DNA of 64,000 bases, taken from contig CAIQCB010000057.1 in assembly GCA_903870245.1 (NCBI GenBank), positions 248,001 to 312,000 on the forward strand, given 5' to 3'. Positions 27,159 to 30,544 of this stretch are shown in pieces (the first letter of the stretch is position 1; every line of letters starts with the position of its first letter). The notes under the pieces are model-generated. The model did not search any database. It was not told the DNA's origin and saw only the letters and a list, made by a program, of their open reading frames with translations. Source of the DNA: an uncultured Methylocystaceae bacterium. Its GTDB lineage: Bacteria > Pseudomonadota > Alphaproteobacteria > Rhizobiales > Beijerinckiaceae. The translations under genes and the position numbers were made by a program.

Positions 27159-27602
27159 TTAAACGCGCGAGACGGGCGGCGCGCGCGCCGCGAGCGGCGA
27201 CAGTTCGGGACTGGAATGAATTTTATCGATAAAAAGATGAGGCGACGGTTTTGACATCGACGCCGGCGGCGGCGTCAAGTAAGCCGCGAGTATTGCGATG
27301 ACGCCCGGAGTCAGCTCGCTAAAACTCAAAAAGCAGCAATCAGTTTCATGATGATGGGAAAGTGGCGCAGGCGCGGGCGCGGGCTGAGGCTGGTGTATGG
27401 GGCTCGATATGGCGGCGTTGTCGTTCAGGCACAGGGCATTGGCGAGGGGGTGTGCGCCCGCGTGTTTGCCGGCGATACCGGCGATGGATATTTGCAGAAC
27501 GAGAAAGCAGATAGCCACAAGCCGCGCCGCATGAACAAGCACGGTCGGAAGCCCGGAATGGCAGGATCTGATTTGCACTGATGACATAATTCTGAAAATC
27601 AA
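27159..27602 (-). CDS. Hypothetical exported protein, DUF2946-like
   Basis: A 147-residue protein with one N-terminal hydrophobic segment (about residues 22-45), a Pro/Ala-rich linker and HHHETDCCFL near residue 83, then a second hydrophobic stretch and an ARAPPVSR end. A hydrophobic leader, a His/Cys motif and a terminal RAPP are features I associate with DUF2946 proteins near metal transporters. It is transcribed toward the PepSY gene with a 277-base gap, so an operon is uncertain. Alternative start 27587. Confidence 0.55.
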   Translation of the reverse strand: MIFRIMSSVQIRSCHSGLPTVLVHAARLVAICFLVLQISIAGIAGKHAGAHPLANALCLNDNAAISSPIHQPQPAPAPAPLSHHHETDCCFLSFSELTPGVIAILAAYLTPPPASMSKPSPHLFIDKIHSSPELSPLAARAPPVSRV

Positions 27603-27679: not shown

Positions 27680-28636
27680 CTAGCGTCCCGGCAGGAAAAC
27701 ATCGGCTCGAATCTGGTTCAGGCTTGCTCCACGCAGGAAGATCTCGCGCCTGAGTCTATTAACCAGATTCTCCCCACCGCACAGGAAAAACGCTGTCTCG
27801 GCAAAACCTGTCACAGTAGCCAGAGCCAGCGCCGAAACGTCTCCGCCAAGTGGCGCGGAGGGATCGAGCACGACCGGTTTGTAGTCGAAGTGAGCCTGGC
27901 GCCCGGCAAGCGACTGCAGCGCATCACCAAGATAAAGCCCTGAGGTGTTTCGCGCGCCATGATACAGACGAATGGGACCACGGTGACCGCAGCCCAGGGC
28001 CTCGCGAAGAACGCCGTAGAGCGGCGCCAATCCTGTCCCGGCGCCAATCAGCGCCATGGGCTGATCGGGATCGACGCCTTCGTAAATACAAGCGCCCGAC
28101 GGACCGGCGATGCGCAGCCTGGCGCCCGCTATAATTTCATTTCGCAATAATCTGCTCATGCGGCCATTGTCATGCAGACGGATATGTAGTTCGAGGAAGT
28201 CGTCTTCGTCGGGGTGACTGGCCAGAGAGTAATGCCTTCGCAGATCGTCCCGCGCGATCAACTCCAGAAACTGTCCAGGACGGTAGTCGAAACCATCGGC
28301 TTCAAGACGCAGGCGAACGATGTCCGGCGCAAGTTTTTCAATGGCGCGCACTTCGGCGTCGATCTCCCGGCCGACGTCTCCGGGCCGCATAATGACGAGA
28401 TCGCTGGTCGGAACGCATACGCAGGCCAGAAAATACCCGGTCGCCTTTTGACCGGGCGTAAGTCCTTCCTGCGATGCGGGCGGCAGGGTTCCTTCAATCG
28501 CGCGATGCAGACAGGTCTGGCATTGACCGGCCCGGCAGGAACTGGGCGGGTCGAGACCCGCACGCTCCAGCGCCTGGAGGACCGTTTCGCCGGGCTCCAG
28601 ATTGATCGCAGACCCGCCGGTGGTTAGTCGAGTCAA
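27680..28636 (-). CDS. 2Fe-2S ferredoxin-NAD(P)H reductase, hemoglobin partner
   Basis: A 318-residue electron-transfer protein with a plant-type ferredoxin domain first (Cys34, Cys39, Cys42 and Cys72) and an FAD/NAD(P) reductase module after (HYSLAS FAD site near residue 140, GAGTGLAPLYG nucleotide site near 200, LCGG near 288). The layout resembles BenC/CysJ-like oxygenase reductases. The start is TTG at 28636, overlapping the hemoglobin stop codon (TTGA) with AGGA 7 bases upstream and no other start nearby. This strict coupling indicates that it feeds electrons to the truncated hemoglobin. Confidence 0.88.
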   Translation of the reverse strand: MTRLTTGGSAINLEPGETVLQALERAGLDPPSSCRAGQCQTCLHRAIEGTLPPASQEGLTPGQKATGYFLACVCVPTSDLVIMRPGDVGREIDAEVRAIEKLAPDIVRLRLEADGFDYRPGQFLELIARDDLRRHYSLASHPDEDDFLELHIRLHDNGRMSRLLRNEIIAGARLRIAGPSGACIYEGVDPDQPMALIGAGTGLAPLYGVLREALGCGHRGPIRLYHGARNTSGLYLGDALQSLAGRQAHFDYKPVVLDPSAPLGGDVSALALATVTGFAETAFFLCGGENLVNRLRREIFLRGASLNQIRADVFLPGR

Positions 28637-29007
28637 TCCTGTTTCCTGCTCAGCACATCCTCGCGCACTGAATTGGCGAGATCGCAGACTTCCCTGACTT
28701 CCTTTTCGCCAACTCCAAGTTGGCGCAGGGTTCGATCGAGATTTTCGAGAACAGCGTCGACATGCGAGTCGTTCAGACCCTTTTCAAGAAGTCGCTTGTG
28801 GGCGTTTCGCATATCGAGGCCCGTGTAGTTGTTGGGCCCCCCGAACGCCATAGTCAGAAAGGACTTTTGCTTGGCGATCTGATCGTTCATGTCGACGCCA
28901 TCGAAAAAGCGCGCAACACGCCCGTCAGCCAGAAGATTACGGTAAAAAAGTTCAACGGCTGCGTTAACCGCTTTCTCTCCGCCGATTCGTTCGAAAAGTG
29001 TCGACAT
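28633..29007 (-). CDS. Group 1 truncated hemoglobin
   Basis: A 124-residue 2-over-2 globin. Tyr22 (B10), Gln47 (E11) and the proximal His70 (F8) have the same mutual spacing as Tyr33, Gln58 and His81 of Mycobacterium tuberculosis trHbN, which oxidises nitric oxide to nitrate. The motifs FFDGVDM and GGPNNYTG are typical of group 1. The stop overlaps the start of a ferredoxin reductase gene, so the pair probably forms an NO-dioxygenase system or an O2/NO sensor-carrier. No nitrite-responsive promoter motif is evident. Confidence 0.93.
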   Translation of the reverse strand: MSTLFERIGGEKAVNAAVELFYRNLLADGRVARFFDGVDMNDQIAKQKSFLTMAFGGPNNYTGLDMRNAHKRLLEKGLNDSHVDAVLENLDRTLRQLGVGEKEVREVCDLANSVREDVLSRKQD

Positions 29008-29141
29008 GACCTCTGCGATCCCTGGTTGATCCGTAATTGATCGGGATTAAGCAGGGTGGCGGCGCGGGAAACAAATGCCATTGCGGCGCAAATTGATGGC
29101 GCCAGTCAGCCCAAGGCAAACACTAAAAAAATCTGATGAGG

Positions 29142-30302
29142 TTATGCCCCCGGAAGGCTTTGCCAATCCAGAGTGACGACCTTTCCGTTCTCGACTGTCA
29201 ATGCGAGATGGCCGCGTTTTAATTCCAGCGCCTTGTCCCCGAAAATCGTTCGTCGCCATCCCTTGAGCGCCGGAGTCTCAGCGTCGTCGTCGCTGGCGAG
29301 CGCCTCCAAGTCTTCAACGGTTGCAATCATTTTGGCGGCGACGCCAGTTTCTTCGCTGACCTGACGCAATAATACTTTGAGCAATTCGACCGTCGCGCCG
29401 TTGGCGCCGCGCCGCGAACGCTCGATGCGCGGTAATGTTGAAGGGTCACGCGCAAAACTGCGTTCGACGGCGGCGACAATATCTGCGCCAGCGCGTGAGC
29501 GCTCCATTCCTTTCGGAAAGGAACGCAAATTGGCGAGGGCGTCGATCGATCGCGGCGCGGCCTGAGCGATCTCGACAAGAATGTCGTCCTTCAATACCCG
29601 GGAGCGCGGCACGTCACGGCTTTGAGCCTCCTGTTCGCGCCAGGCGGCCAGTTCCATCAGCGCGGCGAGATCGCGCGGTTTGCGCACACGATGGCGCAAG
29701 CGCTCCCATGCCTTCTCCGGATGCTGCTCATAGGTGTCGGGAGAGGTCAGCGTCTCCATTTCGTCGACGAGCCAGTCCAGTCGATTGGAGCGTTGCAGGC
29801 GCAGTCGCAGGTCTATGTAAACATCGCGCAAGTGGGTAACGTCGGCGATGGCGTATTCGATCTGGGCTTCTGACAGGGGGCGGCGGGACCAATCCGTGAA
29901 TCGGGAGGACTTGTCGAGATTCGCCCGGGTGATCGCCTTGACCAGATCGAGATACGAGGCCTGTTCGCCAAAGCCGCAGACCATCGCCGCGACCTGGGTG
30001 TCGAAAAGCGGTGCAGGGATCAACCGTCCCAGACGCCAGATGATTTCTATGTCCTGTCGAGCGGCGTGGAAGACCTTGACGACCTCGGTTTTGGCCATGA
30101 GTGAGAAAAATGGAGATAAATCAATACCTTCAGAAAGAGCGTCGATCGCGACCGCCTCCTCCGGCGAGGCGATCTGGATCAGGCAGACTTTCGGCCAGAA
30201 AGTTGTCTCGCGAAGAAATTCCGTATCAACCGTTACAAATTCATGTCGGGAGAAACGTTCACAGACGTCGGCGAGTTCATCGTTCTGGGTCAGTAGCTTC
30301 AT
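29142..30302 (-). CDS. rnd: Ribonuclease D
   Basis: A 386-residue 3'-5' exoribonuclease that trims tRNA precursors. The DEDD exonuclease core begins with [11 protein letters not shown] (first catalytic DxE) near residue 20 and includes the second aspartate in [11 protein letters not shown] and the YAIADV (Y-x3-D) motif. An HRDC domain follows at about residue 210. The ATG at 30302 gives the normal family length; longer frames carry no similarity. Confidence 0.93.
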
Positions 30303-30544
30303 CAGCAAACTCTGGGACTTTCTCTGGCCTCCAATGCCCTTCCTTCCCACCCTTGCGGCCTCATGACAATCTTTTCCGGCGATCGGGGCCGATTTTTTAG
30401 CGACGAGGACCAATGTTTTTCTCCCTGTCCGGCGAAATCCGGGCCAGGCGGAGGATTTTAGGGGGTTGAGGGACTTTAAGGTTGCAGAGCGCTGCCGAAG
30501 CATTACCTTGCGCCGCCACTCTTTGTCAGGGAGTTTTCGTTCTC

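Follow-up and report, generated by a model that had tools for sequence, protein, structure and literature searches.

A truncated globin gene followed by a gene for a ferredoxin reductase has been described before. In Legionella pneumophila, Rodionov et al. (2005) reported the glbN-lpg2536 genes as the sole NsrR target of that organism and, in the passage cited here, suggested NO oxidation as for Hmp (PMC1274295). Gardner (2012) repeated this idea and, in the section cited, suggested that ferredoxin reductases act as donors to truncated globins (PMC3820574). In algae, a diaphorase domain and ferredoxin/FNR are described, in the part of the work cited, as reducing the group 1 globins THB1, 2 and 4 (PMC7082302). 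The idea of a two-protein counterpart of flavohaemoglobin is therefore already in print for the Legionella pair and dates from 2005. We know of no adjacent reductase gene for cyanobacterial GlbN or Chlamydomonas THB1, and in the Methylocystis and methanotroph literature on truncated hemoglobin, NO and NsrR no title or abstract opening was found that names the pair.

The window, by which we mean the whole stretch of 64,000 nucleotides that was analysed, carries a globin and reductase gene pair of this kind. We hypothesize that the pair encodes a two-protein (split) NO dioxygenase, a reading that we hold to be rather probable from the sequence comparisons presented below. The locus comprises the following features.

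29142-30503, same strand as the globin: ribonuclease D, upstream of the globin (TIGR01388, over cut-off)
29037..29050, minus strand: FNR/DNR-like box TTAATCCCGATCAA with 1 mismatch, starting 43 nt before the globin ATG
28633..29007, minus strand: group 1 truncated globin (TrHbN-1/GlbN type), 124 aa (ORF list, sequence, Pfam)
28644..28647, minus strand: AGGA, a possible ribosome-binding site inferred from the sequence, 7 nt 5' of the TTG
28633..28636, minus strand: TTGA overlap of the reductase TTG start and the globin TGA stop (read from the sequence)
27680..28636, minus strand: [2Fe-2S] ferredoxin-FAD-NAD(P)H reductase, 318 aa, TTG start (ORF list, Pfam, NCBIfam)
28406..28606, minus strand: plant-type [2Fe-2S] domain of the reductase (Fer2, Pfam)
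28082..28354, minus strand: FAD-binding domain of the reductase (FAD_binding_6, Pfam), with Arg134-x-Tyr136-Ser137
27758..28051, minus strand: NAD-binding domain of the reductase (NAD_binding_1, Pfam)
27159-27602: ORF without family matches, downstream of the reductase and followed by a PepSY_TM protein

Both ORFs lie where an earlier note on this DNA had placed them, and the overlap that it had read between the globin stop and a TTG start of the reductase is seen as TTGA at 28636-28633. Its wording that the two are translationally fused was too strong, since these are two separate ORFs with overlapping ends. In 16 related loci (within L003-L033) where the reductase aligns from residue 1, that residue lies 4-11 nt past the globin stop (13 loci) or 118 nt past it (3 loci), with positions taken from alignment coordinates rather than start codons. 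The overlap was not seen in these 16 loci, and a conserved fusion device was rejected on that ground.

The window's genus is probably of Methylocystis type: among the best 80 of 545 relatives the closest named loci are from Methylocystis. The earlier note had suggested counting co-occurrence across genomes, and that count supports the pairing: an adjacent globin-reductase pair is present in 31 of 39 genus genomes, and among the best 80 of 545 relatives the reductase is directly downstream at 74 of the 80 named globin loci. Chance adjacency is excluded because the pair is conserved to this extent in the genus. In the other eight genus genomes, four of which are at least 90% complete, neither orthologue was found, the best globin matches being weak (E 1e-9 or worse, or none) and the reductase matches distant or none. 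The globin and reductase genes thus come and go together within the genus. The figure of 74 is composed of 73 loci found by script and L150, whose pair shows as L033, and it includes as paired three incomplete loci, L154 (reductase interrupted) and L115 and L117 (contig ends). The titles of paired loci in the same set name Pseudomonadota, Acidobacteria, Hydrogenedentota, Lentisphaeraceae, Myxococcaceae and Marinimicrobia, where phylum names are those in the record titles of MAGs.

The six named loci without the reductase, again among the best 80 of 545, are L105, L118, L121, L128, L134 and L157. Within the genus, at least one extra globin copy, L105, has no reductase beside it. Four of the other loci encode proteins in which two or three globin domains, all belonging to this clade, are combined, with no adjoining reductase (L118:2285-3109, L128:1530-2741, L134:3251-4453 and L157:4152-5360); their contigs are titled Gammaproteobacteria or Proteobacteria, and an NsrR box is present at L128 as well. 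Truncated globins in tandem have been described as a class (Hade et al. 2017). A further arrangement, two successive globin genes before one reductase, occurs in Mariprofundus-type and other genomes (L161, L165, L167 and unnamed loci such as L206 and L211). In a sample taken across the phylum, a globin was matched at E<=1e-12 in 42 of 397 genomes. For strong globin matches (E<1e-30), the reductase is adjacent in 26 of 35 genomes; four of the nine misses have a contig edge just past the globin (G298, G346, G352, G362), and in five the reductase match is absent from the fetched flanks (G248, G290, G323, G426, G551). Conversely, strong reductase matches (E<1e-70) adjoin a globin in 26 of 39 genomes of this sample, and weaker reductase matches in 0 of 22.

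What kind of globin is encoded at the locus? It matches Pfam Bac_globin (PF01152) with an E value of 7e-17, and His70 is its proximal histidine. Its pocket residues are Tyr22 (B10), Phe35 (CD1), Gln43 (E7), Lys46 (E10), Gln47 (E11) and His70 (F8), where the topological names follow the GlbN numbering, placed on the alignment with 1s69. A sequence search of solved structures returned this cyanoglobin (1s69) as the top relative at 104.7 bits, with the group 1 truncated haemoglobin 3aq5 at 103.2 bits, Chlamydomonas THB1 (4xdi) at 90.4 bits and M. tuberculosis HbN (1idr) at 58.6 bits. The alignment with 1s69 is gap-free to residue 76, such that Tyr22, Gln43, Gln47 and His70 are numbered identically in both proteins, and residue 46 is Lys in the window globin and His in 1s69. 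Nothing in the window globin corresponds to the pre-A stretch of HbN: globin residue 3 pairs with 1idr residue 14, and the ORF begins two residues earlier.

These results bear on the proposal in the earlier note that Tyr22, Gln47 and His70 reproduce the spacing of M. tuberculosis trHbN. The residues are indeed present, and their spacing is presumably the same as that of B10, E11 and F8 in trHbN; it is not specific to trHbN, since 1s69 has the same numbering, and it points to the TrHbN-1/GlbN type as a whole. Identity with trHbN did not hold up, as the pre-A region is missing, E7 is Gln where trHbN has Leu, E10 is Lys and cyanoglobin is closer. A close trHbN orthologue was accordingly rejected, at 58.6 bits for 1idr vs 104.7 bits for cyanoglobin.

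Tyr B10, Gln E7, Lys E10, Gln E11 and His F8 are found in 114 of 114 paired globins, where the conservation of E10 Lys and E11 Gln is partly selected because the named loci were found via two peptide patterns, one of them containing these two residues. Included in these comparisons are 33 paired globins from a profile search that share the pocket, the profile having been built on 14 sequences that all have those residues. The full set of five residues occurs in 0 of 28 other globins of the order, and in 27 of these 28 a reductase match is absent from the locus. In the exception (L051:1501-2944), a distant BenC-like [2Fe-2S] reductase comes directly after a truncated globin that is itself distant and whose pocket, with Trp at B10, is quite unlike that of the paired globins; this locus may possibly represent a second, separate globin-reductase pairing. 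Within the close set the pocket signature is present in 204 of 206 globin domains, unpaired globins included; a tie of the signature to this particular reductase is not proved, since the pocket is also retained by close globins that lack the reductase and since E10 and E11 were part of one search pattern.

The reductase is composed of Fer2, FAD_binding_6 and NAD_binding_1 domains, and together with Cys34/39/42/72 these three Pfam domains bear out its earlier description as a ferredoxin-FAD-NAD(P)H reductase with a plant-type ferredoxin. Of 76 paired reductases, all 76 have Arg134 as well as the cluster ligands (C-x4-C-x2-C...C, Cys34/39/42/72), and 74 have Tyr136. The best full-length NCBIfam match is to the iron-sulfur-binding ferredoxin reductase NF004317 (PRK05713), yet its 208.6 bits fall under the cut-off of 338. 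Assignment to MmoC was rejected at 135.6 bits vs an NCBIfam equivalog cut-off of 500, and assignment to BenC at 120.1 bits vs 430.

In a quick tree of 80 reductases (69 paired and 11 unpaired, thinned from 127, with some long branches and the root set by hand), the paired label changes 3 times vs 10.5 times when shuffled, and 0 of 500 shuffles were as low. The unpaired reductases, of which the 13 before thinning are those that were fetched and not a full sample, form two groups inside the family plus the root end, which holds the hcp-linked and two other distant reductases; this pattern would fit a globin-linked reductase family with two losses of linkage. Globin and reductase distances are correlated (r 0.57, 76 pairs thinned from 114; permuted maximum 0.11), also in the distant subset (r 0.53, n=62; permuted maximum 0.14), where shared descent alone would give a correlation too. 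The earlier description of the reductase as private to the globin is upheld within the genus; elsewhere, same-family reductases stand without a globin in some lineages. One could regard the enzyme as a general electron donor of the MmoC, BenC or Hcr kind that came to lie beside the globin by an accident of operon history, given that MmoC and BenC are among its NCBIfam matches under cut-off, that strong reductase matches adjoin a globin in the 26 of 39 genomes mentioned above, and that the genus has a paralogue next to hcp. However, such an accident would hardly account for the joint presence and absence of the two genes in the genus, for their adjacency over six phyla by title (best 80 of 545) or for the clustering of the paired reductases, and we consider it very improbable.

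The regulatory surroundings of the pair differ between lineages. An Rrf2-family (NsrR/RirA-like) gene adjoins 41 of the 80 named globin loci among the best 80 of 545 relatives (36 by a script distance rule and 5 by coordinates), and 40 of the 41 have the reductase. The published NsrR motif is given in the cited passage as gATGyAT-N5-ATrCATc (PMC1274295). When its core was scored, omitting the outer g and c, 30 of the 79 upstream regions in this set contained it with one mismatch or none (19 perfect, 28 at paired loci), where 0.28 would be expected from 100 base shuffles (largest shuffle 2); L142 was excluded from the promoter counts for having too little upstream sequence. An Rrf2 gene is also present at 26 of these 30 regions. 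Boxes for NnrR (3 of 79; 0.52 expected, largest shuffle 3) and DNR (2 of 79; 0.95 expected, largest shuffle 3) are not enriched among the same best 80 of 545. All six Rrf2 proteins that were scanned score over the Rrf2 superfamily cut-off and under every equivalog cut-off, with NsrR as the top equivalog score for L121, L113 and L163 and RirA for L091, L109 and L131, which carry Methylocystis or Methylocystaceae titles.

The NO context is therefore strong in other lineages and thin in the window's genus. RirA is an iron regulator, and the RirA-like Rrf2 genes of Methylocystis type count against the NO reading, as does the presence of an NsrR box at 1 of 19 Methylocystis-type named loci (L091-L109, among the best 80 of 545). 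In the window the best NsrR match has 4 mismatches, on which an NsrR site was rejected; no Rrf2 gene was found beside the pair, and the promoter scan did not find a sigma-70 site. The FNR/DNR-like box is a weak regulatory lead at most, being one of three motifs tried and of a kind that shows no enrichment in relatives. Within the genus, an upstream Rrf2 gene is present at 8 of 31 loci (searched within at most about 1.5 kb of the globin, up to 2.1 kb for L244 and 169 nt for L083), and exactly those eight (L062, L064, L066, L068, L074, L082, L089, L244) have a 23-nt palindrome, AAGAAGTAT-N5-ATACTTCTT. It lies about 38 nt before the globin start with 0-3 mismatches, vs at least 6 in the other 23 loci, and this link between palindrome and Rrf2 gene points to a possible regulator switch inside the genus. 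As a candidate site in the window the palindrome was rejected, as it is not present there. Upstream of the globin in L070, L073, L085 and L088 (weaker in L086 and L087) we also observed CCTGGAATTGG together with an opposite arm like CCAATTCCAGG just 5' of the ribosome-binding site, and these arms could be an RNA hairpin or an operator pair.

An alternative hypothesis is that the globin serves to carry or buffer O2, either for methane monooxygenase or for respiration at low O2, with the reductase acting as a methaemoglobin reductase that keeps the globin ferrous. The methanotroph-type host and the FNR-like box of the window agree with this. Other roles proposed for truncated globins also speak for it and against the NO reading: in the cited portions of two studies, group II/III truncated globins rise in Methylocella under suboxia or anoxia and are thought to bring O2 to methane monooxygenase (PMC11102522), and three trHbN occur in a microaerophilic iron oxidiser, where a terminal oxidase role was proposed (PMC3770913). 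The NO reading was weighed lower, and O2 supply higher, because the Rrf2 proteins of the kin are nearer RirA and the NsrR box occurs at so few of their loci. Against O2 supply stand pockets of the Tyr/Gln/Gln type, which have high O2 affinity and are held, in the section cited, to suit enzymes rather than O2 transport (PMC11904497), and the NsrR boxes and Rrf2 genes that mark the pair in numerous lineages, including many whose names are not those of methanotrophs. On balance we judge O2 supply to be unlikely as the main role.

Further NO-related genes in the genus provide context for the NO dioxygenase reading. Flavohaemoglobin Hmp over cut-off was found in 0 of 39 genus genomes, and eight partial matches in six genomes cover the reductase part alone. 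The hybrid cluster protein gene (hcp) is present in 22 of 39 genus genomes and was not found in the window's genome. Where present, it can form a second cluster together with a related ferredoxin reductase and an Rrf2 gene that matches the NsrR model under cut-off, as at G036:C1:844767-847962 and its genus equivalents. The start of the window's contig (L249:2-2998) holds an Rrf2 gene nearer RirA and cut by the contig start, a small cytochrome c, a COX1-family protein of 448 aa and then a predicted ATPase; judging from gene order and size, this cluster is probably norCBQ, an NO reductase. A probable NO reductase in the window's genome counts against the split NO dioxygenase, as do the unpaired globins with the same pocket and the related reductases without a globin. 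The missing pre-A region counts against it likewise, this region being described in the passage cited as important for the NO dioxygenase activity of M. tuberculosis GlbN (PMC7082302).

How would a split NO dioxygenase work? The reductase would pass single electrons from NAD(P)H to FAD, on to its [2Fe-2S] domain and from there to the ferric globin. The ferrous globin would bind O2 tightly through Tyr B10, Gln E7 and Gln E11, and the oxy-haem would convert NO to nitrate, leaving the haem ferric and ready to be reduced again. Lys E10 may ligate the resting ferric iron and assist electron transfer, as in Chlamydomonas THB1; E10 residues are described, in the section cited, as able to ligate haem iron and aid electron transfer, with THB1 using Lys (PMC11904497). 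In the cell, the pair might shield methane oxidation and respiration from NO arising in nitrogen metabolism, replacing the absent flavohaemoglobin.

Alternatively, the same two proteins could serve a function other than NO dioxygenation, with the reductase driving nitrite reduction, peroxidase activity or the scavenging of S-nitroso compounds. Truncated globins have nitrite reductase, peroxidase and S-nitroso activities in vitro, and the same NO-type regulation would be expected in that case. Peroxidase is also named in the title of a Roseobacter study. The O2-binding pocket and the proposed parallel with Hmp nevertheless fit dioxygenation best, which makes these activities a distinctly unlikely primary function in our estimation.

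If the pair is a split NO dioxygenase, a broader model can be sketched. Tentatively, and with less confidence than for the function of the pair itself, we suggest that it belongs to a widespread, little-studied family of two-component NO dioxygenases with E10-Lys-gated electron entry from a co-inherited reductase, which would replace flavohaemoglobin in Methylocystis, would have moved as a unit between at least six phyla and would have changed its regulator repeatedly (NsrR box, separate Rrf2 palindrome or FNR-like box). A conserved, co-inherited reductase offers a concrete partner candidate outside pathogens, in organisms relevant to methane and nitrogen cycling, and the model, if true, would show how bacteria without Hmp cope with NO in air. 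What is gained over the 2005 idea is breadth, reductase clustering, evidence on regulators and an organism for study that is not a pathogen. The breadth, the clustering, the regulator switch and the fact that both genes are missing together in some Methylocystis genomes go beyond the cited Legionella passages, and we do not claim that they are unpublished.

Set against known systems, the window pair resembles Legionella glbN-lpg2536, to which it is likened by gene order and description, in having a cyanoglobin-type globin followed by a ferredoxin reductase gene; unlike that operon, a predicted NsrR target in the cited passages, it has no NsrR box. With flavohaemoglobin Hmp it shares the combination of haem with a FAD/NAD reductase and the proposed NO dioxygenase chemistry, and it differs from Hmp in being two ORFs rather than one chain, in its truncated globin and in the extra [2Fe-2S] domain. 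As in M. tuberculosis trHbN, the globin is of group 1; unlike trHbN, it has no pre-A region, and its score against 1idr is 58.6 bits. It is closer to cyanobacterial GlbN (1s69), with which it has Tyr22, Gln43, Gln47 and His70 in common, and it departs from that protein at E10, where Lys takes the place of His. Lys at E10 is in turn what the window globin has in common with THB1 (TrHbN-1), for which the cited source describes this residue as the haem ligand.
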